From the NCBI RefSeq assembly GCF_964204645.1, contig NC_134025.1, positions 3,167,001-3,231,000 on the forward strand: DNA of 64,000 bases, written 5' to 3'. The stretch is from Tubulanus polymorphus (taxonomy: Eukaryota > Nemertea > Palaeonemertea > Tubulaniformes > Tubulanidae). The notes beneath the pieces are model-generated. The model was not told the DNA's origin. It made no database searches and saw only the letters and a list, made by a program, of their open reading frames with translations. A program made the translations under genes and the position numbers. Positions 5,950 to 36,200 of this stretch are shown here, one piece after another; position 1 is the stretch's first letter; each line of letters begins with the position of its first letter.

Positions 5950-6222
5950 ATTTAATAGAACCGATGTGATATATCATTAAAATGACCAGACCTTTCCGAT
6001 TCATTTTTGGATGAGTTTGAGCTTCCTTTGCTGCGACAGATTGTGCTCATTGTTAAATTCTATTGTGATACTGTATGCTACATCATAATGCAGACATACA
6101 TGTATTTCTATTGTGTAAATTCATCTTTGACGCTTAATAGACAAAACCTTATCATGTCACTATGTTGAAAATATTTGTTGAACATTCCTGTATATATAAT
6201 GATACAGTAAATTGCATAATTA

Positions 6223-11979: not shown

Positions 11980-11983
11980 ACAC

Positions 11984-11989
11984 AATAAA
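11984..11989 (+). other. Polyadenylation signal, LRRC57
   Basis: AATAAA begins five bases after the LRRC57 stop, which would give an unusually short 3' UTR. Confidence 0.5.
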
Positions 11990-14900
11990 CTGTACTTATT
12001 ACTGGATGCCATTTTTATTTCAGTGCATGTTTGTTGAAGTTGCATGTAAAACTTAAACTTTATCGAAATGCAGTCGGAATCTGTTCCCACTCAATTTCAG
12101 CACTAATTCTGTTATCTATTTCTTTGTGAGACACCATCACAGCCCAACATTCATTCAAACAAGTTGTCAGCATTGTTTTAATGTTGTAAAGAGAAAACCG
12201 TATACCGGTATGTACAAGGTACTAAAACTTCTAGTCTTTATTAAAATGCTTAACTTAAAAGGTTGCTTGCTATAATTATATAGGGTACAAATAGGGTGAT
12301 TATAAAAGGCATAATTGGATCACCTGTGTGTCTTTCACTTGCATTGTGATTTCCTTATCAAATATGAATGAATCATCCGTTATATAAACGTAAGAGAAAA
12401 AATGAATGTATTTGAAATTTTTGTTGTAAAGATTAATGTAAAATATGTGTATATTATTAAATATTATTATTATAATTAAAATCGGTGTTTTTGATTTATT
12501 CATTCTGATGTTGGGAACAATTAGATGTTGCTGTAATCTAGATGATATAGGACAGCAAAGGAAAGGAAAAACTTTTTAAGGTCCTGGTTGGTGCTTACTT
12601 TTCACAAAAATGTAAGTGCTGAAAAGTGGTAGTCTGAAAAAATTTTGTCATGTGATACTTAGTGTTGAGCAGTGTAACTATCTGTGTAAGTAGAATATAG
12701 CATTGATCGCTATTTTTTACTGTGGCGAGCGAATTGTTTCAATCGCTAATTCCATCAATCCTTCATTTAATGGAATTATTCTCTTGAATATCTCACTAAT
12801 TGATTAAGAGCTAAACCTCCATGTGACGGCTTAAGTCTAAAGTCTTGTGAAGGATGATTGACTGGCTTGGCGATCCTCAAACCGTCCAATAGGCAAAAAG
12901 ATTAAAAATCAATGAATTGATGCTGCATATGCCATTTATTATGAAATCAAAATTCTATAATACAACTTAATTTGATTTTGAATGTGAATAACAATATTCT
13001 ACACATATTGCTGTCTATTTTACATAAAGAGCCATATCTGCAGTCCATACATGCTGGTAGTTCAATAGAGCACATTGATATCATTATGCAGTGCAATTAT
13101 AGCTTTATCTACTGACTAGATGTAACTGATGTGAATGAAATTAATTTTTCTCACTTTATCTTCTATGTATGGACTGACAAATGCATAAAACACTACACAA
13201 ACCCTGCCCAGAGTATCGAATAATAACACAGTGTTATCAAACACATCCTACATGGTAAACATTCCCATGTGAAACAATAAGAAATGATGAAAAACTCATT
13301 TTTCTCAATAGACAGAATAATTCTGAAGAAAAAACACCTGAATGCCTAATAGAACAAGAAATAAAAAAGAAAAACAAACAATCAAAATCTAATGTTAAAG
13401 TAACAAATAAAATTCAGCAGAATTATTATCACAGCAGTTCAATTCTAATCTGTCTGAATTTCCTACAATCACATTAACTGAATATCATGACCACTAGTAT
13501 GTTATCATAGCACGAGGGTCTACTGAATTGATTGTCATATTCTTGGTTCATTAGTTAACACTCAGTTATGGCAGTTCTAGACTAGACAACAATTGACCCG
13601 TGAACACTGCGAACAACCTCAATTCTATTCTTAAAAAAAAAACAACTAAATATATGATATACATCCATGTGCCAAATCTATATCTATTCTTTACATGAAT
13701 CATTAACAAACTGGACAGGGTCTGTTTGTGTGAAAGAAAAAATTCACTTCCGAAATAACAACCTAATGATAATCACAAAGTTCATGCATAATATCTATTG
13801 TAGTATGAAAATCACATAATAACCCTAGCTTTAACACTGTACACGCTCTATTTCATATTTCATCCAATGCCATACAGGAATTTATTCATTTGTGACATCC
13901 TGCAACTGTATAGATCTTTATACCAACATGAACCGCAATTTATTTATAATTACAATCATTAGTGTCAAATATTCATATTTGGTATAAAATAATCATCTGC
14001 TTGGTAATGATTCAACACAGGATATAAAAAAACATCTTATTTTACTAAACTCAACATTTTGCAAAGTTGTTGCGATCTGATATGAAACTTATGAGAACAA
14101 GAATCATGAAATTTGTTAACCTTACATAACAACGATTCAGTCAATAAATTGATGATGGTTATAACGTGCTACACCCCTCTAGACAGTCTAGTCGCGCTTG
14201 CATTAGATATATTTACTATATATATGACAACAACAATGATTTACAAGACATTCTACCTATCTATAGGGTTAAAGGTGATAATATATAGCGTTGTATAATT
14301 CATGTACATATTATTAGCTATAAATGAATGTTTTCAAATTATGTCTTTAATGAAACATTGTTGCCATCAGTGATAACAGAATTCTGTAATGATGAGGACT
14401 GACCAATAAACAATGACTCGAGTAAATTCTTGATTCTCTAAGCAGAATTTTGCTACACATATTCAATAAACTATTTCTCCAGACAGCTGTCTCTTAGTTC
14501 TACTATTGCAAAAATATATATCAATTGCTGACTGGGGAATGAATATTTCTTTCTTCTTCAGTATGGAATGTTTAGTTTACATTTCAAAATGCAGACGACA
14601 TAACGTCAAACTCCATGAATATATCATATCTTTGCTCAGTCCTTTTAAACAATGAACTTTTTAAAAATGTATAAAACGTAATGAAACAAATTGAGTATTG
14701 CATAACTCGTAAATATACATTTCTAGATTGTAACTTCATAACAGATTCTTAAGTCATAATTTCCAGAATTTTTGGTTTCTATCATTTGATTTGTGGCCTA
14801 TTCTACGAGCAGATTTGAAATAATAGCAGAAAACAATCTCAATATATTTGTATTTTGTATATGTAGATTTTACACGTATAGCATATTTACAGTTATTCAG

Positions 14901-15258
14901 AATGTTAAAAAGAGAGAGAGAATAAGTCGTTGAATAGAGATAACCAACCACCTGTTCAATCTACAGCCACCAGGGTTCCAGACAAGTTAAACTAACACTA
15001 GGAAATAGGTAATAGTCACGGCAGACATGAATGAACAAGAGAAGACTTAGTTATGAATTTAGGCAGACAAGTGTGAAACAGTTTTTTTTTCGATACTGTA
15101 AACTAAAACCTTGTATAAGTAGTGACGACGCGTGTTGAAATCTCTCAGTAATTATCCATATCACTTCAGACGACCGATAACCGGGATCTTGAAATAAACT
15201 TCGGTCATCAATATTTCATGAGTAATAAAGTTTGAAATGTATATGCACATGTCATGCC
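11990..15258. other. LRRC57 3' flank and probable SNAP 3' UTR
   Basis: This A/T-rich stretch shows no credible exon on either strand. Its right part directly follows the distal SNAP last exon on the minus strand and probably forms a long 3' UTR. A candidate minus-strand AATAAA stands at 12935-12940, and others occur at nearer positions such as 13879. Confidence 0.5.
12935..12940 (-). other. Candidate distal polyadenylation signal, SNAP gene
   Basis: Plus-strand TTTATT reads AATAAA on the minus strand. If used, the 3' UTR would be about 2.3 kb. Several nearer TTTATT sites exist, so the choice is uncertain. Confidence 0.3.
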
Positions 15259-15321
15259 TCATTTGGCTAATTTCTGGGTTCGTTTTGTGGCTAAATCCAC
15301 CCGCGTGCCCAATGAGTCGGC
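15259..15321 (-). CDS. SNAP25: SNAP distal alternative last exon (ADSLGTRV form)
   Basis: After the acceptor ctcttacag the exon reads [20 protein letters not shown] and stops. It aligns with the vertebrate SNAP-25 end (ADS..TR.D.A..R..K). It is in phase 0 with the shared exon ending INQK, exactly as the proximal exon 16282-16217 is, so the two are interchangeable ends of the second SNARE helix. Confidence 0.85.
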   Translation of the reverse strand, partial: ADSLGTRVDLATKRTQKLAK

Positions 15322-18300
15322 CTGTAAGAGAAAAACATATCCGAAATGATAAAACCAACTCAATCATATAAGAAGAAATGAGGGCTGTTGTTCGTTTTGG
15401 GCGTGCTTCGAACCTATCAATCGATGGTGCAATATCTACCAAGGGTGGATCTAGGATTCTTCGAAGGGGGTGGACCTGAAAATTGGAATTTGCACTAACT
15501 TTGAAAAAGGCAGATATTGTAATGAAAAATATTGTGGGAGTTCTGGTGGCCCTCCCACAAAAACTTTGGGAACAAAATGGGCTTTTCCTGCTCTTATCAG
15601 GGCCATTTGGATTTATAGTTTGTCTTTTTAAAAATTTTCTTTGCAAAAAATATTTTTCCAGACCTTTTGGAGGGCACATTCGAATTTTGATGGATCCACC
15701 CCCTAAATCCACCTTTGCTAACGATAACATCTACAAAATTTGATTCTGAAATATCAATCTCTCATAATTAAAATTATCAGTGAAGAATAAGAAGCACTTC
15801 AGATTTGAAAAGATTTGTGATAAATGAAGACACCGCAATGCTTCTGAAATTAAATATCAAAATCATCAAACTGAAACCCAAACGCACAGAAACAAGCATC
15901 ATAGAACAAACTGTACAACTCAACAGAGAAATGCACAATCCACAGATTACAATAAATAGAGAACTACCAAACGATACAACTACAAAACTAGACAGCCTGG
16001 TGTCAATCAGTATGGAAAACCACTTAACAAAACATAATAATATTCAAGAAAATATTCAAGGAATAAAAGTACATGGAATCCTGTCTGGAAAAATTGAGGA
16101 GGAAAAATGATGTACGAAGAGAGAGAGAGAACTGTAAAATGTGCAAGACAAAAAAGAGTAAAAACGGCAAGAAATCTCCACTAATCGGATTTAGTTTAGC
16201 CAGAGAAGTAGTACCTTCACGAACTAAGTAACTTGTTGGCACGTTTGTTTGCCTCACTGATGCGGTATTCATTAGATGTAGCCTGTAAGAATAACACAGC
16301 GTGACATTGGTTAGTACAAAAAGTCTCGAAGATATCCAATTTTACAAATCCAGATCTTCTTGGTAAAATAATATCAAAGGACATCTTCTTCGAATATCTA
16401 ACATAAATTGATGTTGGCAGAGTGAGTATACATATCTCGTAGTAACATGCACTTGCTAAAGACAATATGTATATTCTAATATTACCAGTAGACTAACGTA
16501 AGAGAAAAAATAATCCATATTGTGCAAACATCTCATTTTAAAGCATATAGCAGTGACTAGATATACGCATTAAATTGAGATTTCATTGCAGCAATCATAT
16601 GCATAAATATGCAGTACAGGGTTAAGTAATAGCCGCACATCTTGTTATTTACAATAACTGTAGATGATAACTAACACAGATCATTGAAAAACGGCATCAA
16701 ACAGACAGTTCATCCAAGAAAAACCGATCCAAAAACAAGTGCAGGATTTTATTCAGACGACAGCAGTGAAAATACAGTAATAGAAGCATTGGAACTCGAA
16801 AACGTCAGTTGTTGTATAGATCATTCCCAGTGGACCGCCGTGTCAAATGTCGATAGCTCATGTATAAAACATGGCGTTAGTGCTGACTTAGTTCTGCATA
16901 TACACACAATACAGGATATAAAACCATTTAAAGACATTGCCAGCGATAGAATCAATTCCCTGATGATCAATCTCTGATTGAAAAAATAACAACATTATTT
17001 ATTTGCATGCACGGGTACGACGGATACAATGCGCATACCCAGGACTACGATATCAAAGTCTCCTTCTGAATGGTTATCAAATTCTACACATCGGTTATAT
17101 TGATATTTATCAAATATTCAGTGATTCATGCAGTTAGACATCATGAATTTCTATCAATTCTAAACACGAATGATTTATAATTGCTTATAGCAATTGCTGT
17201 TCTACGTGCATGTACCAGCATTTATCTAAACCACTCAAAGGTGAATTTTGAAACAAAACTTCTAATGAATTTTTCAAGGATTCTGACTGAATACCGTAAG
17301 TTGCAGTTCGAAATTTCGCTACGCTGGTACGAACACAAGGATCCCATCATCGAATCTATTCACCTCGTATAGATTCAGATTACCTCGAACAGCGAAGTGG
17401 CACTCACTCATTTCGCAAATCTTTTAATGGCTTGAGTCGGTTGAGTGAATTTTACGTAACAGGAGATTGGCAAAATGAATGCAATACCGATGTACATTAA
17501 GCCTGATCTGATTATTTCAGACATGCTATTTATTACCTTCTGGTTAATCCTGTCAATTTGTTTATTCTGAGAACCGATCTCGCTGCCCATATCTATGGCC
17601 ATGTTACGTAGATTGCCAATCATACCGCTAACTTCGGTAATATTCTGCTCCATTTCATCTTCACGTGCGTCATTCGTTACTCTACAAAACAACAAAATCA
17701 TCTGATAATGCAATTGATTGTAGTGACAAAACATGTTAAAATCAGTTGACATTTTCCACAAAATCCTTTTATACATCTATGCATGAGGACTGATAAGATT
17801 AAGATGGCCACCAATAGCCAATAGACTAAATACTACTCATATTCCAGAACTTAAGAAAATGTTGAATAAAATACTAGCTCAAGGAGACTTTATTTTGTAT
17901 TCTTAATATTCTTAAGTGTGGGATCTTTTATATAAATCATTTGAAAATCTTGGCTGTTAAAAAAGGCAGAATTTTTATCAAATGTATCCACAACACGAAG
18001 GGGCTTTCACTCGACAAATGATTAACAAAAGCAGCTATTGCCTGTATATAAGAGGTACTAAAACCAAAAGAAACACATCTAAGGCAAAGTCGAGCTTATG
18101 TCACTTTGAAGATTCCGTGTAAAAATTGAATTAACATCGTCGCATAACGGAGCGATGATTAATTAATTTGATTAGATCAGGCTTAATAAACCCCTCCCCC
18201 CGGGCACAATTTTGACGCCGTTATAATGTAATTAATACACAGCCTACTTAAAGCTTGCATCATATTTCAGCCGATGATACAAAGCAATACGACGACGACG

Positions 18301-21300
18301 ACGACGAACGGATGAATTATTATCAGACGAGATTGATTTTCTGTATTCGTCTTAAAGCACGCAGCGAGAAGCTTTTCAGTTAATTGCTCGGGCGGAAGAG
18401 TGCGTGCTTCATTCAGTATAAGGCTTATAGAGTAAAAAGAGAAACTAATCACGGCACCATCTTGACACGGCTCACATTACAAACATACAGATGTTATCCG
18501 TCCGGACGACGCATGAAAACAACATCATCTCGCGATGTTTTACTGAAGTTGTTTTTTATTTCTCTCGCGATGACGTGAAACAGTTCGTGAATTACGACGG
18601 AAATCGATGCAGATAAATAGAAAACCAGTGGATTACAAACCGTGTAATAAAACCACCGCTCGACTGCATTCCGTTTCCTGCATCCACCGTGATTCTCGGT
18701 CCATCCTGATTTACTTGTCCGTCGTCGTTCGCTTTCCAGGTAGCGTTATACGCGGAACCTTTCTCGAAATTCTTAGCCCTGAAAATAGAACAAAAACGTC
18801 TTCTTACACGCGGCATATCACTTGTTAGTCCGTTCTAATTTGGCCCGCACCAAATGGACCTATTCAGAATGGACCAAGTTAATACTCAAATGATTATCAC
18901 TGGTCCAACTGCTGCACACTGTGATTGCCAGACAATCGAAGCAAAGACTCCATCACGAATGGATGAAATGATCCATTCAAAAATTTAGAACAGATCTTGA
19001 GTAGTATAAGTTGGTCGGTTTAGGGAAGTGTAATGATTACACTAAGTGCAATCAATACACTCCATGGTCGGTTCTAAGAGGGAATCAACCAAATTAGCAC
19101 AGACCTTTTGCTAGAGCGGACACATGCTCGGTCCATTCTTAAAATTGAAGCGGATTAAATCTAGCAAATTCTAAGTTATGTAGTGGCTATAGTGACTGGG
19201 GAATGAATGATATTTCTTACTTCTTCGGTATGAAATGTTCTAGTCTCCTTCATCGGACCCAGAATCAGAAATTCATGATCAATAAAATGAAGCAATTATT
19301 ATCAGTTGGATAAATGCTATTAATCAAAACTTAAACATCTTTCATTTGATAGAATTCTTGCAATTTTCATGACAACTCAGCTTTACTAAAGACATGATTA
19401 ATCGTTCTTCATCTCATACATGAACCATTTATCCCGAGTTATACCTCTTCCACGGGAGAACACAAAGGCCGCAACATTTTTCTAGACCCTCTAAATTTTT
19501 CTCAGCATCTTTCATATCCTGATTAATCTGGTCCATTCCTTCTTCAGCGCGATCCAATTGCTCTGCAAGAAAAAGCAACAACTCGAATGAAAGATTACTC
19601 GAAATGATTCGGATTTTTTTCCCCAATATCCATTAAGGGAATGGCGTAATGAAAACCTATAACTGTCAAATATACGAATGATGATAATAAGAATCGAATA
19701 TAACCACATATCATAGCGTGAATGTCAAGAGTAATTACAAAATGAAGGATAATTATCTAAAGCATCCTCACTATTATATTTCACTATTTTCTGCTGGGAT
19801 TTTGACGAATACCGACAGAAAACAGCATGAAATAGTATCGTTGAATGCTATCATATTTTGGTTCGATCATTTCCCAGGGGTGGATCCAGGGGTAGGCTTT
19901 CAGAGAAGCACAAAGAAATGAAAAGCTGAAAATGGGCAAGTTTCCACGCAGAGCGCTCAAGAAGGGGTTTGGAAAATTTTGAAAGTTCAGTTTACTTTAA
20001 TGCAATTTTCAGGCATTTGAGTGACATAAAAGAGAATATAAGCTTAAACTTGTTCAATCAGTTATGGGTGGAAAAATTGCTGTCATTTTTCAAAAGGGCA
20101 CAGAAAAATTGGGAGCCAGTGTTTCCGCCAGAATCCACCAGTTTCCAATATTCTAACGTAACAAAGATACCGTTAACATTTGTCTAAAACCCGATCGATT
20201 TGATTTATACCCGATAAAAATGTTCTAAATGCGAGTGCGCGGAATATTCATCCAATAAGTTCATATGAATCGTAACCCGTACCAACCTACGATTAAAACT
20301 GCTAAACATCACGACATATCGACCTACACAGGTTTACAATTACAATTATTCTATTTTTACAAATTCAATACAAGCAACTCTTGCTATGTTTGAAATATTG
20401 CAGCTATAAACGATAGAATGTACAGTAAAAGGATGCTACTAATTTCGCAAGCCATCCGGCTTATCACTTCATGGGTTTTTACTCACCGCCATGTTCAAAT
20501 TAGACATGCATCTTTATTACCCATATATTATTGGATATGAAGTAGTATTAGTGAGATGAAGTTACGACTATAATAGCCAAGTTGTCATTCGGTTTTGTCA
20601 TTAGGATCGACATAATATTATTCCTCTCTACGCTCCACATAATTCAGCATCGAGAGGATATTGTGCATTGCGACTACAAATCAATATTATCCATCAGTCT
20701 AGACAGGAACCAGGCACTGGAAATATTTGCTTTTTGGAACAACCCTTTTCACTAAAACGCCTAGCGCTTTCTCTTGTGAAAGATGTTGAGTATGTATCTA
20801 AGAAGAATGTTTTCACGATAATGTTTGAGTCCTCGATATCAGAAGACCTTGATAAAAAGCATTATTCGCCGTGAAGAGACTGAAGAGATGTTTCATTGTA
20901 ACCGATAAAATCTGTACTCCATCTAGTCTATATACCCATCACCATGACGTCGTCAACGCGAATTCATGGCATCTTCGAATCGGAATAGAATTTTCAGACG
21001 TCGAATCCCATGAGGACTAAAACATTAGCGGCAAGTACGTATTAGCCATAAAATAGCATACGTTGTTACCATGGTTCTCTATTCACTCGTAATAAAATTT
21101 GTAGCGCAACATTTTGCAATTCATTCCGTATTACGCCGACGGTCACCATCAGCCAGAAATAAATTCTCCGAATGACAACCACATGAAATCATCGCGCGAT
21201 TCTTACCTCCTTGATGGTCCAACATTTGAATTGTTTTGACACCTACATCCTGACTCTAAAGAACACAAAATAGTTGACAACGTTGAAACAAAGTGCTCAC

Positions 21301-24300
21301 AAAATAAAAGCATGCGTAGTGAAATTTACTGTTTGACGGACAACAAATGAGGTTATTGCGAAATCTTTCAATTAATAAAAACATTCAAAGAAATCACTGA
21401 CGGTCCAGTTCTACAGTTCGACAGTCGAGATTTGATTCTAGGGTTGAAGAATACGAAATGTGAAAACTGCGGAACTGGCGTCGAAGAAACATGATTTTCT
21501 TTACAAATATTTTGATTTAACAAGTACTCATTGAAAAACGTTAAGGAAATTAATAAACTTATTTTGTGCGGACCAGGAAAAAAAATTCCCTGGAATAAAG
21601 TGCTATAAACGAAAGCATGCATTAGATTTTAAACATTTACTTTTATCTAAAAAATACAACATCGATCGATATTTTACAACGGAGAATATTAAGTTGTCAG
21701 AAGCGATAAAAAAATCTGTAATATTTCTTGTTCCCGTCCTATCAGCGAAAAGCGCTTTTTTCCCGCAATATAAATGTCTACTCGAACTACTCAATCTCGG
21801 GATTTCACCCATAATAAAAAAGCAGAAATTTCATGGCTTCTGACAACTGATGACATTCTACAACACTTATCCAGTGACATAGTGTGTACACATTAAGATA
21901 ATATTCAAACCTACCTCCTTGTTCATCTAACATTACCAGGGTACGAATACCCGCTTCTTTACCCTAATATTCATATTCATCAAAGTATGTTTAATTCATT
22001 TCATCTTCACAAGTATCGCATACGCTACTCATTATCAATGTTTTACACTAAAATCTGGTGAATGCTTGATACCACATCACGAGTTACACCATAATACCAC
22101 GTTATAGTATAGATACTTTATCGCTCAGATTCCTAGACACCGAAGCATGAAAATTTTATACTAAAATTAGACAGCTCTCCAGTTCAATAATATTCTATGC
22201 TTTTATCGGTCAGAATTTATGTAATTATTGCAATAAGTCTAAAATGGATTTACGGCATTTCATCAACTATGAACTAATGGGATGATATAATCAGTTTTAC
22301 GCATCCACAAATTCTGCCACGCCGCAATAATTATTGGTCACGTAAGGGTCAGAGTCGTCGAGGACAGAGGTTCACGAGAGTGGAGATAAACTACCATAGC
22401 GGATATTCACGACGACATCAGATAATGAGCGACTCTTCCCACCTTGTGGGAGATATAAAAACAACTAATCATATCACAGGTAGATCAGTAAAAATGGGAC
22501 TTACGCGAGAGTAATGGAAAGCAGCATTATGTATTATGAGTGGTTCTCTTGATTCATACAAGGAAATAAACAACCACAGAACAGATACTGAAATCTATGG
22601 ATCTCCTTATTCCAATACTCAAGTCAAATCAGAGATCGCCTAAAATGAATCACACCAAGACTCGATATTTGTGATGACATCAGATATACGTGAAACTTCA
22701 CTCCTCGCGGGAAAAAGAAAGACATAAACTAATCATATAAGGTGTAGATAGGATAAAAAAGCTTCTTCGGGGCTCGCAATATGTTTGTGTCGGTGAAAGT
22801 GGTGGAATAGCTTTCACTCGATGGTATTATAGTCGATGAGGGACTATCTGTATACGCTGAATTATCCATTATGTCACGTTATTTACGATAACGTTTCCTA
22901 TTTTCTCGTATCGCGTTACCGAGCAGCGAATCGATAGGACTCGATGACGACGACGACGCACTTCTTGCTTTCGCGAGCCACGTCCTCTACGCGGCAATGT
23001 TTCAGGTCAAATACTGCATAAATCATTTATTAAGCCCGATGAATACGCGACGGAAATTTCATTATCGCGTCGATCGATGATTAGGTATTGTTCGTATTTG
23101 TCGCGTGTGTTAAATGACATCAGTAGCTGCAACGATACTCGATTCTAAATGGATCAACAGCTACAACTACTGACATAGTCACGCCCAAACAACACAGGAC
23201 CACACTACAGCTATCATAAATAATTAACCCTTTCAGTGCTGACTAATTAATACCCTATAGTGCTGGAGAAAATTTGAAAATTCTTAAAAATTCCACCCTA
23301 GTGTGTTGAACAATGGGAATACCACTATAGTGCGTCTACACCGCAGTGCGGTGTATCGTTAGTTACTAGTATTTCACTATGTTTGACACTTGCTGCCATT
23401 TTTCAATAGAGATAATTACAAATTACTAATTACATCAATACACCGCAGTGCGGTGTACGAGCAAAATCCATCACTGATTTATACACCGCACTGCGGTGTA
23501 GACGCACTGAAAGGGTTAATCATCAAGCATATTTACTTAAAATGAGCCTCATACATCTTTATTTCATCCCTGAACCCCATTGTCACGAACGGATTTAGGG
23601 CCCCATCCCCCCACCCCCGTTCATTGCCAGGCCACATACATTTTCACAGAAAGTGGCAATTTACAGCTGGTCACATTGTGTAAGAATCATTCTAGATGCC
23701 CAAAAACACATATTTTCAAATTACTTCCTCAGGGCCGCTATTCTAAACTTCTGGATCTACCCGATTTAGTACCATGAGCAGGTGATTGGAGTTTCTTTTT
23801 CTGATTGGGAGGAGAGGCCAGAAAAGTTATGTATGTTCTCATTGACCCTAATGGCCACTGTATTGGATCAAATGATGTCTTTTTAAATGCAAGTGTTTCT
23901 CTTGAATTATTTAGATACGTGGTATATTTTTAGATTTCTGGTTTTTTTTTAAAGGAAATCACAATCCACGAACGTCATTGAATGTCATGGTTACATGTAA
24001 ATAAGTAATGGCACTGCGATAGAGCCAAGTGAAATCACAGCACGAACTGACTAACTGACTGACTGACTGGCTGGCTGAAGTCTAAGTCAGGATACACTCG
24101 TGAACGAACTATTATATCCCTAAATGTCTAGCTCCAATAACAGGCACGTTCCAGTCAAAACAATTAAAGCTTTTTGCATGATGAACTTCGCGTTGTAAAT
24201 TTAAGGTAATGCTTCTTCAATTTGCATAAAACCGATCTCATTATCAACAATTCTAATCCGACTATTTACAGCGTCTAAGAAACGGCCATTAAGCAGAGAA

Positions 24301-26946
24301 ACTCCCGTCGTAAACTGTGAGTTTATCTTCGAAACTAAGTTAACGAATATGTCTCGAATTCATGGATGATTACCCGAAACAGAATCCGAAAAAAACCATA
24401 TAAAAATCGTAGGAACTAGTGGCAGATCCCGTGGCAAGGTCACGGTCGAACCAATTTTTTAGGGAAGGTTAAATGTAACTCGTGTAAGTGCATTCCGATA
24501 GTTCCATATTGACAGGATTCTTTTTAGGAATCTTCAACGACAAGTTAAAAAATCTTTTCGACAAAATCCTGTCGTTTATGACATAAAAAGCCTCTAGATT
24601 TTAAGGAGACACAAAATATCGTAAGAATCCCTCGATCCAGGCCCGGAAACTGTTTACTTTTACCTCTCAGATTTTACATCGAAAGATTCGCAATCTTTTA
24701 TTACATATATGTAATTGACAGGAACATTATTCTCATAAATAACTGTATGTCAGAAATTCACGGGAGTCACAGACATTTTTGTCGATCCAACATGAAAAGG
24801 GTGGTGAACGACACAAGACAACGCAGCGAACGAGAGAAACAGCTCATTATTTTCCATCCAGTCTTTGATCATTCTTGATGTTCTTTTGAAGCTCGCCGCG
24901 GATTTGTCCCCGTAGATTTCAAAATATCCTCCCTCCCCCCGCCGCAAACCAGACTAACTTTGAAGAAACGGCAGATATCTTCCATCTCTCGCGCGTATAT
25001 GAAATCGGAACCAAGCGCCGGAAAGGATAAATCTTGCGAGGCCAGATACGCTGACCCCGGTGCTTAATGGAAAATCCAAGATCAATAAACTGGCGAACGG
25101 AAAGCGTCGAATCCTCGGGAGAAATGGCAAACTGAGACAGACATGAGTTATCAGGGCAGAAACGGCTGCCGCCAACAACAGATAATTTTTACCACGGCGT
25201 GAATCCTGATTATGAAAACTGATCATCAATCAGCTGTTCATGATAAATAACGCCTCTCCCGATAACACAAACTATTGATAACCAGCAAACCATTATTGAT
25301 ATAACCAGGGGGGGGAAGGGGAGGGGGCGTACAGCACAATACCACAATACCATAATATCCAAACAATAAAAACAAATGGCTATCAGTCTAGACTTTTGAA
25401 AGAACGTTATTTGCCTTCACAAAAACAGACCAAACACAGGAGGGGGGTCATGCGAGATTTCTATAAGACCCTCAACATTTTCAGTGCCCTGTCGAAAAGT
25501 ATATTGTGTCAAAAATAGAGCAATTTGGCTTTGAAACGGATACTTTGGGTAAAAAAAAACATCACTTTGTTGAAAGTTCCTGAAACAGAGTCCTACAGAT
25601 CAGTCACTCCTGGATATAAGGAGTTTTCAAGGAGAAAATTTCAAATTTTGAAGAAGCGCCCACTTTCCAATTACAGTAGACTCCTCTGAAATTGATACCG
25701 TTTTTCTCAGTAAACCATTAATTCAGTGGTTTTGTAAGCAAATTTTTATCATTTACACTAACTAAACTCGGTTTCTAATTTGGTAACTGCTAATTGGGTA
25801 AAAAGATCCTGGTTCCAACAGTACTGATTTAGGGAGAGTTTATTGAGTAACCCCTGGATTTACCCCTGAAACAGGACTGATATATCTCACCCCTGGATTT
25901 ACCCCTGAAACAGGACTGATATATCTCACCCCTGGATTTACCCCTGAAACAGGACTGATATATCTCACCCCTGGATTTACCCCTGAAACAGGACTGATAT
26001 ATCTCACCCCTGGATTTACCCATGAAACAGGACTGATATATCTCACCCCTGGATTTACCCATGAAACAGGACTGATATATCTCACCCCTGGATTTACCCC
26101 TGAAACAGCAACCAACCGACGTAATCAAATAAATGCAGCGAAGACGGTCACTACGAGATGAAGCTGTTGCTAATTGTTCAGTTGCAATCTTCAACACGAC
26201 GAACGGACGGTGCAACAAGCGACGTCAGTGTCTCATCTGTTAATGTCTGACGAGACAAATCAAATTTCAGAATCACATTATCACCATCGGTGCATTCCGT
26301 TACTAAACTGACACGGCCAATCGGAAATAACATGTTCAATATGTGTGTGAACATAGGAAGACAAACACGCCGCTGAGCAGGTTATCATTAAGCACTAACC
26401 CCCCAAGATACGATGACACAATGAATCAAATTACACGACTCAGTCGGTTAACTCAGATTACCCAGCTGAAATTATCCACTGCTCGTGTTCTGGGCCCGGT
26501 TCCATAGTCGAGACTTAGGTCCAAAAGTGGTCTTTAATCTTAGGAATAATCTTAAGTTGGGTATATCACTAAGTAGGTCTTAGACTGGTCTTAAGTCTTA
26601 GTCATGACTATGCAACCGACCCCTGAAGACTGCGTCACCCGGATCAGGTGGAGGCTATTTGGCCCGGGTCAAACTGGTACGCACCAGACCCCCGATTAGA
26701 GTACATCGAGACATAAATCGATCAAATGATACTAAAATGCTATCAAAAATATGCAGCGGCGAGTGAGGTGAGTGATTTCCAGAACCCGGCGCGGAATGAT
26801 TTGACCCAGCTCAATTTGAGCCTATGTAATCATTAATCATTATGATTGATGAATATCACGATTATAACTGTGAATATCAGCGAAATGGAGTAAAAACTAC
26901 TTAAAACAGAAACGCCAGTGAAAATAGAAAAACTGGTTGAATCCCG

Positions 26947-27013
<67 letters not shown>

Positions 27014-27153
27014 CGAGAATGAGAGGAGATAAGTGGTGTAGTCAATGATGGATTCAAACAGCGTTTATGGTGGTGGTGAATAACGACGGGTGCCTGCCTC
27101 GTGATGTAGTATCTTACAAATTTATCGATATATTACTTATACATAGCCGTTTA

Positions 27154-27201
<48 letters not shown>

Positions 27202-30200
27202 AAGCACTCGTGTTTAATGATCCTGAATAAATGAAGCATACACTCGGTGTATTATATCGCAGTTTATTATATACGTCAGTCGTGTTAACTTACCTCTTCA
27301 CATAATGCCAGCATACGACGAGTCGTCTCCAATGACTGAAAATATAAAACACATCGGTATCAAAAACGTGAATTAAATACTGAATATATCGGTAATAATC
27401 TACTAATCATACATGCAGTTTATAATGACAGTCTAACAGGCTCGGACCAGACCCGAGTCAAATTTGGCCCGTAAGTGAATCACTCACTCATTACTAAACG
27501 ATGCCGCAGCAAGCGAGGTGAGTCATTTCCAGACAGTTTTTGGTCAGGCCAAACAGGCTCGGACCATTATGACACCTACGCGATCAGTTTGGCTCCGGTC
27601 AAAAATGCTTGTGCGATCGGGGCTCAAATATTGCTTAAAGAACTATTAACCCTTTCAGTGCGTCTACACCGCAGTGCAGTGTATAAATCAGTGATGGATT
27701 TTGCTAGTACACCGCACTGCGGTGTATTGATGTAATTAGTAATTTGTAATTATCTCTATTGAAAAATGGCAGCGAGTGTCAAACATAGTGAAATACTAGT
27801 AACTAACGATACACCGCACTGCGGTGTAGACGCACTATAGTGGTATTCCCATTGTTCAACACACTAGGGTGGAATTTTTTTTAGAATTTTCAAATTTTCT
27901 CCAGCACTATAGGGTATATATTAGTCAGCACTGAAAGGGTTAAGCTGAGCATTGGTATATACAGAAATGGGTAATTATGAAATGTTGATTAAAGAGAGTA
28001 AGGGGCTATGGCTAATGATTTGAAGTGATGTAACCCTTAATTACGAATCAATTCTACTGATATCAGATTCAATATACCGATTCATGTTGTACTCGATAAG
28101 TTTTGGAGCTATGTAATTAATTTTCTGCCAACGTCCCATCGCCCATAGTCAATGTCGTAATTAGTGCATCTACGAGCGCGTGATTTAGTGCAAATCGCTC
28201 GGTTACTGTCAGACACAAGACATCCGGAATAAGAGATGACGATTCTATTTCTGTCTCCGGTATCAGCGGGATTTAAAACGATCGCAGCGATTTCGGATAT
28301 TTTAGGAATGTTACGTCACAGCGTGGTCCAAACTGATGATTCGTAAGATCAGTTTTTCAAGAATGCTTTTTCAATGAGTTTAAGTCAATCAGGTCATTAT
28401 TTTGTCTCTATTTTTTAGTCCCACTTTGAAATTCCAAGTCAGTCGTCATTTGGATAAATTGTCAACATAATGATGACCAAAAGCCCAAATCTTTATCACC
28501 AACCAGACAGTAAAATAGAGTTCGGAAATATAGCGACTTTTAGACTAAATTGAATTCGATCATTCTCATTGGTGATCAAGATCAAGGTCATCAAATGAAA
28601 TGCTGAGAATCTTTGACCATTTCTGATCTAAGAGCGCTCTCCGCGTTCAAGCATTCTAAGTAAATAAAAACATCGGTACATTTCCGGCGGGGAAATTGAA
28701 ACCTAGATCGGGGAGAACAGTCTCTCTGTTTTCTATCCTGTTCGGCTGAAATAACTTGCAGACGAAAAACGGATATGCGAAAAGAGGATTGATACTCGTA
28801 ATCATTGATCTCATATCTGACGTTTACCGCGGAGTGTTGAATATTAACATCGAGAGGATTATCGCGACCTCTTTACATTACCATATAGAAAGAGACAGTC
28901 AGAGATTTCATCATTCATCGCAGTCGACAAATATCATTATACGATGAAAATAATATATATATATATACATGAAAGATGTATCGCTTGATCGTCGGAGACG
29001 TTTCCAAACTTACTTCAGTTGTGCCATCGTCGATCTGTTGTTGAAGTAACTCGCCGGGTGATAAATTAGCGTCGTGTTCCCTTTTCAAGCGTTCCTCCTC
29101 GGTCTCCTTCGGTTCCTCATTCAGTAATCCACTGAGACCCGGCACTTCGAACACCATTATCGAATAATAGCTTTACCACAAATTACGGAATTACGATTTC
29201 ACGATATGCCTCGAAACGCGCGGGTTTTTCACTCTAAATCTACAATTTCATATCCTCGCGATCTTCCGTTTTTGATTCTATTCCATTTCCGTCGATCTTT
29301 TCATTATCCTTTTTTTTTTCGAACGAAATTCTTCCGCGTTATTTCCTCTCGTCGCGACACATGCTTTCAACGACGACGACGACGACGAATATTTGTGCGA
29401 TTGCGCGCGCGTGAACCCAAACTAAAACGGACGTAGCGACGACGACGTTGCCTCTATGCGAAGTTGCACATTCAAATGAAAATCCATACACGACGAGAGA
29501 AGGCCGATCTAATGAGACCCTATCAGCACGAACCCGCGAACGACGATGCTTTGCGAGCCGGTTGACACGATGCTTCTAACGTCGACGCCGTGTGTGACTC
29601 GATAGCTGCTGCATATTCGGTGAAACACGAGCAGCGAGCGACATGATTGTTTTAAAATTCGCGTATGAACGTACACGGGGGACGTGTCGTCTCACATGGC
29701 AGAAGATATCGCCGCGGTGTTTCATCTATAATTTATGAAACGAGCCACCATCAGTATTCACGAATATAACATTCTAGAAACAGACTGTAGAGAGCTAGAA
29801 ACTCGCCCGGTATCAATTAACGATGTTAATTCAATAATTCATGAGTATGTGGACCATGTGTGAATACACTAATACAATAGATAACTAATGAGACGAGTCC
29901 GGTGAGTGTCACTTCATAACCTATAGGACCGACCATCGGGCTAATTTCATCGACGGAGAGTTTGAAGATGAATTTCGAGATATGCGAAAAACCCTACTAT
30001 AATCAAAAATCTCAAAAGGATCAAATGTACTTTGAAGATGCGAATGGAATGTAAATAGATATATCTATATCAAATAGGTTTTTTTTATGGGGGAAAGCCT
30101 TAAGTAGCTATGGCAACGAAGGTCATAACGAACGACTAGGAGAGGCCATTTATCAAACAACTATGCTCATGTAATGACCAATTTCGTCTGGGAAATGGGA

Positions 30201-32359
30201 TGAATTCCCAATGTTCAATAGCCCCAAAAGTATTGCGCTAATCACTAACAGTTGTATATTTACGACTCCGCTAAGATTGCTTATTTGCTCCAACAACGAT
30301 CTATCATTGCTACGATCATTTTGATGATCGCGAAAATATCCGCATATCCTTCATATTATTATTAGCGAACATTGTAGAACATTCGAAAATAATAAGCTTC
30401 ATGAAATAGTTTCCTGTCCGTATTGAAACAATAATAAACAGTAAAATCCTTCTAATCTTTGACGATGACTGTTAGGCTCTAGTTGAAATGTCCTAAAACG
30501 GGATACCGGCAAGGCTACTGAGGGAAGGGAGGATTCAGCGATAATCCACCAGGATCAATAGTGGTGCTGGGTTACCGCGCTTCCCATACACTGAGGGAGA
30601 AAGGCAATCTTATATTTATCCGATGACTTCGCATTTGGAAGCCTAAAAATCAAGTTCAAATTTCATTGAAGATGAACTGATTTTCACTATGAATGACCCA
30701 CTGTTTTGTTGCGCCATCTGGTGGTGCCCGCATCCCATTGTACTAACTACTAGCGCAAGGAAAACCATATCCGATTATCTTCTGGGATTCGAAATTCAAC
30801 TTATCGATTCATATTCTGAAATTTTACGACTTCAGAAAGATTCGTACCATTTCGGAAGCGCTACAAGCCAAGTCTACTCACTATCAGTAGTGGCCACATC
30901 GGAAAGTGGTAAAATTTCATAATGTATTAAGCGATCAAAACCGGGCATCCATTACAGTATGACTGAGACATTTGACGAAGCCAATCTGAAAAGTACAAGC
31001 TTTATCGCAAGGCTACACGACTGATGGATGAGTATTTCTGTATTATTCAAGCATTAGTCTCACGACGGATATGTCACAATATGCATGTCGGGTAATACCT
31101 CCAATCATTCAAGGCAGCAATAACATAAACCATAAATCTTTATTGTTCATACATATGAAATATTCATTCGTGAAATTTTCCAATTTCATATCGGAAACTG
31201 TCAACCGAATTCATCAAAAACTGCATTTTAACAGATACACGCGTAAAATATCAATTTGAGCCGACATGAAAATTTAATTGGTCGAAATAATGGTAGAAAT
31301 AACGGAGCGACATCGCAAGCAACAATACGATATTCGAAACAATTTAGGCAGCATCTGCATAAGCAGCAATAAATGTAATTAGTTATGCACATGTTTGGTC
31401 CATTGGGATATATGTAATTTGTAGAACAACTAAATGAATACTTGAGTATGAGAAGGGTATGATTAGAGAACGGGTCAGATGACTGCGCAGACCAGTAACA
31501 CCTCACTACGTCCATATTGCGCAAACACAGAGGAATTAACGCTACGGAAATAATCGTAACATTATTCAGATACGAATTGGAATAACTAGTGATTGAGATG
31601 TGAAGTTTCTCGGTTGTTCATTCATGAGCGCCGTGAATCTAGACTGTATCACGGTATCCGCAGATTCCATCAGGATTATCACCATATATCTTCCCTATAC
31701 CGAGGTCATCTACAGTACATTCCATACGAGATAAGTACGAAAAGTTCATCTGTATCTATTCACTTTTTATAGTCTTTACGCAATTTCTAAAACATATATT
31801 CTATAACGTGACTAAAAGACAGCAAAATCTATCAATTTATACTTCAAATGATAAACAAATATAGGCGAGTAGCGCACAGCTGTGTAGAATTAATTCTCAT
31901 TTTCATGATTTGCGATGTCATTAAACTGTATTGAACCGACACCTGTTGGGAGGAAATTAGAGTAATCGATCGCATTAGTGATTATTTCCATCGACAGAGC
32001 GCGCCACTGGCTAGTCACGCGTACATATCGAACGGAATGATCGAGTTACGAATGACGTATGGCCGATACTCGATGATAGATCGCTGCAGGCAATTAACTG
32101 ATCTGATTCGTCCGCAAGAAAACACGCTTCGAACGGAGGATAGAACAGTAGTAAATTGCGGGGAACTCGTTTCATACGAGAATTCACCATCTCCGACAAT
32201 GCTTCAAATAACATATACCTATATAATCCCTTGGGCTGAATATTCGAAAAATAGAACGCCCAACATTTAAAATTTCTCACTTACTTCATCAGTAGTAGTG
32301 TTCATTTTGAGCTGGAGCTCAGCCAGCTCGCTACGCATTTCATCATCAGTCTTCGACAT
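15259..32359 (-). CDS. SNAP25: SNAP-25/SNAP-23 t-SNARE with three sets of alternative exons
   Basis: Plasma-membrane Qbc-SNARE that supplies two helices to the fusion complex with syntaxin and synaptobrevin. Common exons on the minus strand: 27335-27294 ([14 protein letters not shown]), 19562-19445 ([17 protein letters not shown]... to [10 protein letters not shown]), 18778-18641 (linker, [15 protein letters not shown]) and 17681-17537 ([12 protein letters not shown] to QIDRINQK). Alternatives: first exon 32359-32285 or 29157-29014; second-position exon 21963-21915 or 21255-21207; last exon 16282-16217 or 15321-15259. Phases agree for every choice, giving 209-210 residues with the upstream first exon and 232-233 with the other. 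The zero-layer glutamines are kept: DEQG or DHQG in helix 1, and SQNKQ in helix 2. The palmitoylation segment has three cysteines and a Trp ([10 protein letters not shown]) where vertebrates have more cysteines. An acceptor-like cttctgaaag on the plus strand at 32382-32391 suggests a further 5' UTR exon upstream. Introns are large and rich in mobile elements. Confidence 0.95.
15425..15715. repeat. Dispersed repeat resembling 19875-20160
   Basis: Begins ggtggatctagg and ends with ggatccaccccc in the other sense. A related ggtggatccaggggtaggct begins at about 19878. It lies in the intron between the two last exons of the SNAP gene and is a likely non-autonomous element. Confidence 0.4.
16217..16282 (-). 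CDS. SNAP25: SNAP proximal alternative last exon (ATSNEYRI form)
   Basis: After the acceptor ttacag the exon reads [18 protein letters not shown] and ends LSS-stop. It aligns with the C-terminal end of the second SNARE helix. It is phase 0 after INQK. No strong minus-strand AATAAA was found between here and the distal exon, so how its transcripts end is unclear. Confidence 0.9.
   Translation of the reverse strand, partial: ATSNEYRISEANKRANKLLSS
21207..21255 (-). CDS. SNAP25: SNAP mutually exclusive exon B ([16 protein letters not shown])
   Basis: A 49-nt exon with acceptor tttag and donor gtaaga. It encodes [16 protein letters not shown] plus one base that joins with AG to give Glu. Its length and phase match exon A at 21963-21915. 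It keeps the zero-layer Gln (HQG). The pattern SQD-G-KTI-MLD resembles SNAP-23, whereas exon A resembles SNAP-25. Using both would add 49 nt and break the frame. Confidence 0.88.
21915..21963 (-). CDS. SNAP25: SNAP mutually exclusive exon A ([16 protein letters not shown])
   Basis: A 49-nt exon with acceptor attag and donor gtaggt. It encodes [16 protein letters not shown], which is almost the canonical SNAP-25 sequence around the zero-layer Gln. It is located 660 bases upstream of exon B in transcript order. Confidence 0.92.
23223..23519. mobile_element. MITE carrying three 19-bp palindromes, copy 1
   Basis: The terminal inverted repeats are ttaaccctttcagtgc and its inverse. Inside are three copies of the 19-bp palindrome tacaccgcagtgcggtgta (23337-23355, 23440-23458, 23482-23500). 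A second copy in opposite orientation is at 27646-27943. Confidence 0.85.
25586..25845. repeat. Dispersed repeat, family shared with 8120-8385
   Basis: Moderately diverged copy of the element in the NTPCR intron. It ends directly against the 39-bp minisatellite at 25850. Confidence 0.55.
25850..26107. repeat. 39-bp minisatellite, 6.6 copies
   Basis: The unit begins cccctggatttacccctgaa and continues to atatctca. Copies are almost identical; two carry an acccatg variant. Because 39 is divisible by three, several frames stay open through it and give repetitive, meaningless ORFs. Confidence 0.95.
26492..26623. mobile_element. Foldback element, cccggttccatagt family
   Basis: cccggttccatagtcgagactta at the left end is met by an approximate inverse (cttagtcatgactatgcaaccg) at the right end. 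A related pair is seen in a ZNF106 intron (43157-43274). Confidence 0.5.
26949..27014. repeat. (GA)n microsatellite
   Basis: About 30 GA units with two interruptions near the right end. Confidence 0.95.
27157..27198. repeat. (AT)n microsatellite
   Basis: About 20 AT units in a row, 95 bases from the donor side of a SNAP exon. Confidence 0.95.
27294..27335 (-). CDS. SNAP25: SNAP common exon ([14 protein letters not shown])
   Basis: A 42-nt phase-0 exon shared by transcripts from both first exons. It encodes the SLE-TRRML block of the first SNARE helix. Acceptor attttcag, donor gtaagt. Confidence 0.93.
27646..27943. mobile_element. MITE carrying 19-bp palindromes, copy 2 (inverted)
   Basis: Same element as 23223-23519 in reverse orientation, with the ttaaccctttcagtgc termini. 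One of its three palindromes has a mismatch (cagtgcagtg). Confidence 0.85.
29014..29157 (-). CDS. SNAP25: SNAP alternative first exon B (long N-terminus)
   Basis: 48 codons from ATG 29157 to the donor gtaagt. It starts [16 protein letters not shown], runs through an acidic stretch, and ends [17 protein letters not shown], which joins SLETTRRM in phase 0. The end aligns with the beginning of the first SNARE helix (compare LSxEEIQQR in SNAP-23). An exon with its own start codon inside the gene implies a second promoter near 29.2-29.5 kb. Confidence 0.75.
29158..32284. other. SNAP intron between the two first exons; probable internal promoter
   Basis: No coding exon was recognised. The 250 bases upstream of 29157 are richer in CG dinucleotides (repeated cgacgacg near 29370-29450) than the rest, which would suit a promoter for first exon B. 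Confidence 0.4.
32285..32359 (-). CDS. SNAP25: SNAP alternative first exon A (canonical N-terminus)
   Basis: 25 codons, [20 protein letters not shown] to TTTDE, then gtaagt. Matches the usual SNAP-25 start (DMRNELEEMQ...DE). An acceptor-like ctttcag 23 bases upstream of the ATG implies an untranslated exon further out. Confidence 0.92.
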
Positions 32360-32807
32360 TTTTTTCCCCGCAATTCACCGACTTCTGAAAGTAATATAAG
32401 AACCAGTAATGAGAAACTGCAGTAGATCATAATCGAACTGAAATATCTGATACATACGGCCATCGACAAATTTGACTCGGAGACAGATAGGAATATACGG
32501 AGCCGATTTCCGAGTGGTTTAAATCGATAAAAACAATGCTATTGCAATATTTACGCCGAGGATATTGGTTATAACTGCCGGGCAGATATACATTATCTAT
32601 GTATAACACGAAGGCGATTATTGACAAATAGAACTAACAATACAAACCAATCGATATCAGGAAATCTGTCCCTGGATAGAAATCCAATTTTCTACGACAT
32701 CTATTTATCAACAAAACGCGTAAAGACAAATGTCTCAAATCAAGAGGGCAAATTGACACGCATTCATACTAATGTCTATTTCAACCTGACTTGAGAGCAT
32801 TCCGGGT

Positions 32808-33245
32808 GGCCTAGCTCAGTCAGTTTTGGTAGTACATACCTGATAAAGGTCTTAGTAGGACCAGAAAGGACGGGCAGTCGACCTAAATCATCATTTTAAT
32901 CCATTTGAAACTGTATTGAAGGATATCCAAAAAGACTTCACTGAAAGGGGTTAAATGAAGAGAAGTGACTCCATGATTTGAAAGTTTAACAATATGTCTC
33001 CATGCCTACATACCAAACTTCAGTTGGTAGGCATGGAAACATATTGTTAAACTTTCAAATCATGGAGTCTCTTTTCTCTCATGAACCCCTTGAACCCCTT
33101 TCAGTGAAGACTTTTTGGATATCCTTCAATACAGCTTCAAATGGATTAAAAAATGATGATTTAGGTCGACTGCCCGTCCTTTCTGGTCCTACTAAGACCT
33201 TTATCAGGTATGTACTACCAAAAATGAGTGAGCTAGGCCACCTGG
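32808..33245. mobile_element. Long foldback element with tRNA-like ends
   Basis: Two arms of roughly 200 bases mirror each other around 33008 (catgcctacataccaaactt...aggcatgg). The outer ends read ggcctagctcagtcag, like a tRNA A box, followed by ggtagtacatacctgataaagg. This could be two tRNA-derived SINE-like units head to head. A related, more diverged element is at 62485-62735 in the NOVA gene. The open frame 33002-33271 is chance. Confidence 0.75.
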
Positions 33246-36200
33246 AATGCTCTCAAGTCAGGTTGAAATAGACATTACGACAGATGTTATTATTAGTATA
33301 CGGTGTATGATATAGCAGTCAAGTGTTCGTGGGAATATTTATGAGAGTAATTCTCGCAGGTAAAATATCACGCATCTCGATACATAGCGTGGCGCGCCAC
33401 TCCGCATCTTATCAGAGATCGGTACGCTCCGTCCTGTCCCGAGACTGCTACTCGAGTCAGGGGAAATGAGCGTTGTCATGGTAACAAACTGCTTTCCGCG
33501 GGTACGATATATGTCGCGTTCGTAAGTGGGAGACAATACTAACGTCTGGATTAGAGAAACAAATCACTGACAACTGTTACGCATTACACAAACGATTTCG
33601 AAGAGGCCAACAATTTATATCTATATATGTATTTAGGCTATATGAGATACAATTATCGCGTAAGCCATCAATTTATTCTCTCTTATCAAACTCTTACTGC
33701 AACATTGACTGTTGATGCGTTCAATATTCACATTCGCCTGATGTCAGTACTGCGTCAGTTGCTGTTTGCATTATCCATAGCAACAAATTACCCCTAATAT
33801 AGTTCTCAACACTCCAGACATTATAACTGGAATCTTGTATATCAGATGAAATGGTTTTGTATGAATGCGCAGCAGCGCTGCTGCTGCCGGCTATCATTGT
33901 ATATGTTTTGCAGGCTTTCATGTATGTTTTCGCTCGTTATCAAGAATAAATATATACACTCATAATTTTTCCGGCTGTATTCGCGATTATAAAATAATCT
34001 TTCGTCGAACCGTCGTCTATATATGAAATATGCAACAGCTAGCGAGCCGCTCCCCACAGGGCCGACAGATTTACAGAGTCTACGATCTCTTTCCGATAGA
34101 CGGGGATAATTCCATTAACGGGATTGTGTAACGAACATGATTGCGCGGATCAGTTAATTGAAACGGCGACAGAAGTTGATTGATTTTCAAAAGAGCCATC
34201 GAAGCCGGCTTCGCAGTTGAAAGTCGCCGTCGAAAAAAGCCAATTACATATTGCTGATAAATAAAGACGGCTTCGAAGATGGATGAGTTCATTTGAGACA
34301 ATACAGCGCGGAAAGTGGTAACAGCCAAAACGACCCGATAGATTTCATTTTTTATTGACACGTAATAAATCCTCATTTCTGCCGAAGCAAATCACAGCAA
34401 CCGCAATGTTTCACATGCAATAGGCTAACATAGCTCGAAGATTAGAAATAGAAAATACTGATTCGTTCAGAATTAACGTTCTTGTCATTCATTCCTACCC
34501 GGTATTCGGACCTGTTGTATCGCGTAAATATGGCTATAATCGTATTAACACCAAGTCGTCGTTGATATGTTAATACGACAATCATGAACCACATCAGGAT
34601 ACATTGATGCTATTGATATTTGTTGACCATCTCTTCAGATTAGTTACAAGTGAGATAGTTAATTTAATTAAGATGCCTCAGCGTTGACCGTTAAGATGAA
34701 ACTGGTTATTCCGAGGCCGTTAGGAATCTTACGCTAATAACCATTAAGCGCGCATTACCGACTACTCGAAATGGATTGATACGTAGCTGAAAACTAAGTT
34801 TTCTCGCTGAATTAACGAACGAAGAACCATTCAAACTTATCTTATCGTCTTTTCTGTTGACCTAAGAGCCATGCTAGATACAGTTCTATATCTACATGTA
34901 CCATATTAATGACAGATATCAATGTTAATAGTTTCTTGTTCTTGGACTCAGTTCAACGCAGTCGAAAATTAGATGATTTCCATTGCGATAATTCATGTAG
35001 ACCTAGGCCTATTAGAGTCAACCGAAAAACTGTGGAATCCATTCTATGAACCATTAGGCTAAACAAAAATGATACCTTGTTTCTCCGCAGCGGCCGGGTT
35101 ATTTTTGTAAAATATGATAAAATTTTTAAACAGTTCATTTCTATAGCGGCCGGGTCTGTTATGGTAAAATTGATCACGATTTTATAAAAAGTAATGTATA
35201 GGGTAGATAGGCGGGCGGCCGGGTCAACATTTAAGCTCAGCAGAGTGGAGAAACAAGGTATCAATTTTTTTTAGCCTTAATCATTTTTGATTCACAGTAA
35301 AATCTTTTGAAATTGACCAACTCTTTAAGTCATACAACTGCAGTCCTGGCGTTTTAACAGTTACTTTTAAATTTCCTTAACATGTATTGATATTTATATT
35401 ATATATAACTACACAAGTCTACAGATTCACACATCAATGAATTCAAAATTTCAATTTCATTCATTAAATGATCGCATCTTAACTTGCATTGACTACTGGT
35501 ATTGATGTAGAATAGACTAAATATAACCATATACACTTGACAATACAGTCGAGAAATTAAACCAGCATCTTATGACTATCGGTCAATGAAGTCAGTCGAT
35601 ATCCAATCAAGCCGTCTAAAATAGTAGGCAACGATCAGATAGTGACAGAGACTGCAATCCCACTAATACTGACAATATACAGTGGATCAATCACTTGCTA
35701 GATCGGTTACATTGGAAAGCAATTGCCCTGATTGGATCTACAAAAAGCATTGATGCATTTGAAATATTGATTAATCTTTCAACCAATCCATCTTGAATTG
35801 ATGGATTTATAGCAGAAAATGTGACAAACTGTTCCATCAAATAACAACCAATGACGACATCCAGAATGGCCTTTCAGAGAATCTTTCCACAATTGATTTT
35901 TTAGACAATGATAATCAAATATTCGCACTCAATCACACCATGCCAATGGCGATGAACGAATGATAGGATTGCAAAATCTGTTGGTTCTAAAAGAATTTTT
36001 TAAGACCCAGTGTAAATAAATCAGCCCATCCTGCACAAAATAGAATGACAGTATGAATAATTTTCAAATGAATACCTAGGCCTTCATACCGACTGGTGCC
36101 CTGGGGCACATACATGTGAAGTTTGATACTCAAAAATGACAGAAACACGGAAGTGAAATTTTTTCGGTGATTTAATGACTATTTGTAATTGATTTACGAA

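Follow-up and report, generated by a model that had tools for sequence, protein, structure and literature searches.

A single SNAP-25/23-type gene with doubled start, 49-nt and C-terminal exons, and the predicted effect of its alternative exons on coupling to synaptotagmin-1

The window, namely the whole 64,000-nucleotide stretch of DNA analysed here, contains on its minus strand (15259-32384) a gene encoding a SNAP-25-type Qbc-SNARE. The Pfam SNAP-25 domain PF00835 is matched at 74.5 bits (curated cut-off 25), and the equivalents of Q53 and Q174, the zero-layer glutamines of the two SNARE motifs, are found in every isoform. The canonical form is identical to human SNAP-25 at 124/203 residues, a slightly low count since the human reference is a solved chain with cysteine substitutions, while its linker displays three cysteines where the vertebrate proteins have four. 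Within the SNARE motifs, squid SNAP-25 fragments outscore the human fragments covering the same region and give the best PDB scores, which is consistent with a lophotrochozoan without proving one; a COX1 search gave no match. The constant exons, shared by all isoforms, are all SNAP-25-like. The gene is laid out as follows, residues being given in human numbering.

32285-32384, minus strand: exon 1A, with 5' UTR from 32384, ATG at 32359 and coding sequence 32285-32359
29014-29157, minus strand: exon 1B, alternative start of 48 codons, beginning MVFEVPGL, with donor GAA/GTAAGT
27294-27335, minus strand: exon 2, constant, 42 nt
21915-21963, minus strand: exon 3can, 49 nt, layers -4 to 0 of SNARE helix 1, synaptotagmin-1 interface residues intact
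21207-21255, minus strand: exon 3alt, 49 nt, core layers intact, with K40Q, L47I, V48Q and E52H
19445-19562, minus strand: exon 4, constant, 118 nt, remainder of SNARE helix 1 and start of the cysteine-bearing linker
18641-18778, minus strand: exon 5, constant, 138 nt, linker
17537-17681, minus strand: exon 6, constant, 145 nt, SNARE helix 2 with the zero-layer Q and the D166 equivalent
16217-16282, minus strand: exon 7A, canonical C-terminus and stop, with a possible donor GT at 16214
15259-15321, minus strand: exon 7B, alternative C-terminus and stop, with layers +4, +5 and +7 changed
12500-15258, minus strand: probable 3' UTR after 7B, its extent inferred, with AATAAA at 13944, 13886, 12940 and 12500

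Coding positions 1 to 7 are collinear (75/144, 42, 49/49, 118, 138, 145 and 66/63 nt), with three of them doubled (1A/1B, 3can/3alt and 7A/7B), and GT-AG borders are found at every exon. These ten exons had been proposed in an earlier note on this DNA and lie at, or a few bases off, the positions it gave, those of 3alt (21207-21255), 1B (29014-29157) and 7B (15259-15321) being exact. Its proposal that every combination is in frame, so that eight proteins are possible, also holds: all eight translate without internal stop into open frames of 209-233 aa. The 49-nt exons, described there as mutually exclusive, have equal length and the same phase, and inclusion of both or of neither results in a frameshift and early stops, so that exactly one of the two has to be used for the frame to be kept. 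We infer from the sequence that the alternative exons are used in transcripts and that 3can and 3alt exclude each other in vivo; the alternative exons could also be rare or unused in mRNA.

A search of the 267.8 Mb genome revealed no second SNAP-25/23-type locus and no spliced retrocopy. Weak matches that were considered as a second SNAP-25/23 gene were rejected, as they correspond to SNAP-29, a separate gene present on another contig, and no relatives were found in viral and prokaryote sequence collections, which were screened in case they contain stray animal DNA. Given this, together with constant exons that are single-copy and a collinear exon order, it is scarcely credible that the assembly has fused the exons of two paralogous genes into one locus, and nothing was found in favour of such an artefact. 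Tail-to-tail with the SNAP gene lies a leucine-rich-repeat gene (10676-11990, plus strand) that we take to be LRRC57-like. In human, one annotated SNAP23 exon, about 30 kb downstream, is antisense LRRC57 exon sequence (PMC4054009), and in a table of sheep genes SNAP23, LRRC57 and HAUS2 are adjacent (PMC9104502). A tail-to-tail arrangement with LRRC57, as for SNAP23 in mammals, supports the gene as an orthologue of the SNAP gene that preceded the vertebrate duplication, the LRRC57-SNAP microsynteny having apparently been retained since before that event. A published phylogeny places the split between SNAP-25 and SNAP-23 in the vertebrate stem (PMC7385117; also PMC6143360). With a sole SNAP-25/23-type locus found, this agrees with the earlier claim that the locus predates the vertebrate duplication, and supports its assignment as a lone invertebrate SNAP-25/23-type gene of pre-duplication type.

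The alternative exons 3alt, 7B and 1B resemble SNAP proteins beyond chance, the null being first-order Markov sequence in simulated 64-kb strands. For the 49-nt exons, every open AG-49 nt-GT stretch was scored against the gene's canonical exon, the SNAP-25 of squid and human, and human SNAP-23. The scores are 79 and 55 (3alt) for the real exons, compared with 11 for the next stretch in the window and a maximum of 25 over 600 simulated strands. The last exons score 96 and 40 (7B) with a null maximum of 33, and the start exon 1B, whose homology is weak (5/14 residues), scores 18 with a null maximum of 16 (800 strands). No further duplicated exons rose above noise when both isoforms were run by tblastn against the whole window. 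In that search 7B by itself is indistinct (15.8 bits), as would be the case if 3alt, 7B and 1B were noise or old exon copies, no longer spliced at useful mRNA levels; its support comes from homology in combination with acceptor, phase, length, stop and position. Such relics are nonetheless improbable: the frames are open, the phase is correct, the core residues are retained and the splice sites are good (the 7B acceptor ranks in the top 0.28% and the 3alt donor in the top 0.08%). The change is also far below what neutral decay predicts for such a divergence, since in simulations of unselected decay run at the observed nucleotide divergence the observed protein similarity was reached in 56/110,661 stop-free runs for 3can/3alt and in 455/99,235 for 7A/7B.

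The signals at the two ends of the gene bear on how the alternatives could be chosen. An acceptor, TTACTTTCAG, lies just upstream of exon 1A, whose body starts at 32384, which implies that the transcript starts further upstream in a non-coding exon or that this is a trans-splice site. The earlier description of two first exons is thus right in that 1A and 1B are both present, but inexact for 1A, whose ATG is preceded by this acceptor. The donors of 1A and 1B are identical. By inspection exon 1B has no clear acceptor, and the CpG-richest bin of the scanned 14-36 kb (29001-29500) contains it; both observations suggest that 1B probably has a promoter of its own. A near-perfect long inverted repeat, probably a foldback element, is located 0.4 kb upstream of 1A (32770-33277, arms of about 240 nt, 88-98% complementary).

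At the other end, several AATAAA follow 7B, the 3' end of the gene lying beyond 15259, and neither AATAAA nor ATTAAA occurs in the 895 nt separating 7A from 7B. The two last exons of the earlier note are both present, but 7A may alternatively be a stop-containing cassette: 7B would become 3' UTR when 7A is included and coding when it is skipped, the 3' UTR after 7B being common to all transcripts, and a junction 2 nt past the 7A stop would escape nonsense-mediated decay. The distribution of polyadenylation signals fits such a cassette, as does the donor AAG/GTACTA at 16214, which scores 4.0 and is comparable to the constitutive donors of exon 4 (3.7) and exon 5 (3.3), although it is weak in absolute terms and non-canonical poly(A) signals do exist (TATAAA at 15617 and others). 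We consider the chances about even that 7A is a stop-bearing cassette or that it is a last exon in its own right, served by a non-canonical poly(A) signal. The distinction alters the mode of choosing 7A or 7B and leaves the resulting proteins the same.

For the 49-nt exons, the acceptor of 3can is the weaker one (top 35% among AGs, compared to top 11% for 3alt). Splice-site crowding is unlikely to cause their exclusion, because the 659-nt intron that separates them is too long; regulators or nonsense-mediated decay would have to enforce the choice. Five copies of TGCATG, the Rbfox motif, are found in the introns flanking alternative exons (P 0.02 uncorrected, a lead only), and in mouse the choice between exons 5a and 5b of Snap25 is governed by RBFOX2 (PMC10676425).

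We then consider what the alternative exons resemble. Over its 16 residues, 3alt is identical to human SNAP-23 at 11, to human SNAP-25 at 9 and to squid SNAP-25 at 8, and it shares Q40, K45 and I47 with SNAP-23 beyond what a simple substitution model gives (P about 0.001-0.006, indicative only, as the model ignores site-specific constraints). Exon 1B scores 18 against both squid SNAP-25 and human SNAP-23, and 7B is identical to squid and human SNAP-25 at 9/20 and to its sibling 7A at 8/20, with no lean to SNAP-23. The earlier idea that the alternatives partly mimic the SNAP-25/SNAP-23 split consequently stands for 3alt but not for 1B and 7B, and the shared exons are SNAP-25-like. A switch of the whole gene between SNAP-25-like and SNAP-23-like products, by linked choice of 1B, 3alt and 7B, would draw on the closeness of 3alt to human SNAP-23 and on its three SNAP-23-specific residues; we regard it as unlikely, since 1B is equally near to SNAP-23 and squid SNAP-25, 7B is as near to SNAP-25 as to 7A, the constant exons point to SNAP-25 and the vertebrate-stem split leaves no shared descent. 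For the same reason the invertebrate gene is excluded from descent as SNAP-23, and the SNAP-23 likeness of 3alt must be convergent.

The counterpart of the 49-nt exon in human SNAP-25 is residues 39-54, which by the layer numbering of established structural work carry layers -4 to 0 of the first SNARE helix. In 3alt all five layer residues, the zero-layer glutamine among them, match human SNAP-25, and its eight differences from squid SNAP-25 are all off-layer (P 0.013). Four of these eight fall at the synaptotagmin-1 primary interface, at positions 40, 47, 48 and 52. The key SNAP-25 residues at this interface are K40, D51, E52, E55, Q56 and D166 (PMC8967716), and K40A/D51A/E52A/E55A/D166A is a set designed to break it (PMC9811660). 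With V48F or D166Y, synaptotagmin is bound less well, spontaneous release goes up and evoked release becomes desynchronised (PMC10911398). While 3can together with the constant exons retains K40, L47, V48, D51, E52, E55, Q56 and D166, 3alt departs from this pattern in a manner close to SNAP-23, which at or near the interface differs from SNAP-25A only by K40Q, L47I and V48T (PMC8967716); the match is incomplete, with V48Q in place of V48T and E52H in addition. The synaptotagmin-1 of the same genome retains the partner residues R281, E295, Y338 and R398/R399. Because the layers are kept, the interface residues are changed and the partner residues are present, 3alt most likely encodes a SNAP-25 that would still form the fusion bundle, its coupling to the calcium sensor being reduced or different. 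As D51, E55, Q56 and D166 are retained, the change in binding may be only mild.

The other two doubled positions would act elsewhere on the protein. Exon 7B retains the equivalents of R198 and K201 and changes layer +4 from N to L, +5 from I to V and +7 from A to T; the best reading is that the choice between 7A and 7B would tune membrane-proximal zippering. Exon 1B makes the N-terminus 23 residues longer, ahead of the first SNARE layer.

Altogether, we propose, with a probability of roughly 0.6, that a single SNAP-25/23-type gene is diversified by RNA processing at three sites, the 3can/3alt choice tuning coupling to the sensor and the 7A/7B choice tuning zippering; the function and expression of the isoforms are predicted here from sequence. 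Two start exons, probably with two promoters, would provide either a short or a 23-residue-longer N-terminus before the first SNARE layer. Of the mutually exclusive pair, each member encoding layers -4 to 0 of the first SNARE helix, 3can would give isoforms tightly coupled to the calcium sensor, and 3alt would keep zippering with weak or different coupling, so that spontaneous, asynchronous or non-synaptic release may be favoured. Finally, 7A and 7B, differing at core layers +4, +5 and +7, would alter the last, membrane-proximal zippering step. Splicing could in this manner tune how closely release follows the nerve signal. Nerve and hormone release depend on SNAP-25 as their t-SNARE, and human disease mutations strike its synaptotagmin-1 interface; if the proposal is true, a natural exon swap edits this interface with the SNARE zipper intact and offers a ready-made in vivo test of it.

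Part of this arrangement has counterparts elsewhere. The C. elegans SNAP-25 gene ric-4 has alternative N-termini and so, likewise as an invertebrate SNAP-25 gene, a choice of start exons; it is not known to have a doubled 49-nt or last exon. Alternative C2B exons have been described in Aplysia synaptotagmin-1. In the present genome the synaptotagmin-1 gene also has two tandem C2B exons (4999-5135 and 5885-6021 of the locus; about 11504000 and about 11504886 on the plus strand of contig C1), likely a mutually exclusive pair. As in the SNAP gene, an exon is duplicated in tandem, here in the partner of SNAP-25; unlike it, the protein is another one and both exons keep the primary-interface residue Y338.

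The vertebrate SNAP25 exons 5a and 5b form a tandem pair in the region of the first SNARE helix and linker, of which one is used (PMC2581893; PMC10676425), and they resemble 3can/3alt in this. However, the exon doubled there, in bony fish, is the next one (118 nt, 5a/5b; PMC2581893), whereas in the present gene it is the 49-nt exon before it, plus the start and the end. The doubled 49-nt exon is vertebrate exon 4 and not the vertebrate-doubled exon 5, whose equivalent is here the 118-nt exon 4; the two duplications are independent events. Vertebrate SNAP-23 shares with 3alt K40Q, L47I and a polar residue at 48 (PMC8967716), but it is a separate gene, while in the present one the likeness is convergent and confined to 16 residues, and E52H comes in addition. 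It is tentatively conceivable that splicing does here, at the synaptotagmin-SNARE interface, what vertebrates did by gene duplication: 3alt would have converged on SNAP-23-like residues and one gene would supply both tightly and loosely calcium-coupled SNAP-25, possibly jointly with the tandem C2B exons of synaptotagmin-1. If so, alternative splicing and gene duplication independently arrived at similar residue changes. We found no published description of a doubled 49-nt SNAP-25 exon or of the triple arrangement, in a search that most subscription papers lay outside, and automatic invertebrate annotations may list such isoforms.

Intron 2 contains a number of repeats. A short element, about 300 nt long and containing TACACCGCAGTGCGGTGTA palindromes, occurs there in two copies of opposite orientation (23224-23520 and 27645-27943) that are 99% alike over 235 nt. 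Genome-wide, the best 40 of 2824 candidates are all 99-100% identical, which marks the element as a MITE-like family that is abundant and very young. In the pre-mRNA, the two inverted copies could form a fold upstream of the 49-nt exons. The same intron displays a tandem array of about nine copies of a 39-nt unit (25811-26161), together with neighbouring (GA)n and (TA)n runs (26950-27012 and 27158-27197). Outside the SNAP gene, a single-exon open frame of 337 aa on the plus strand (2113-3126) resembles by eye a rhodopsin-class G-protein-coupled receptor.
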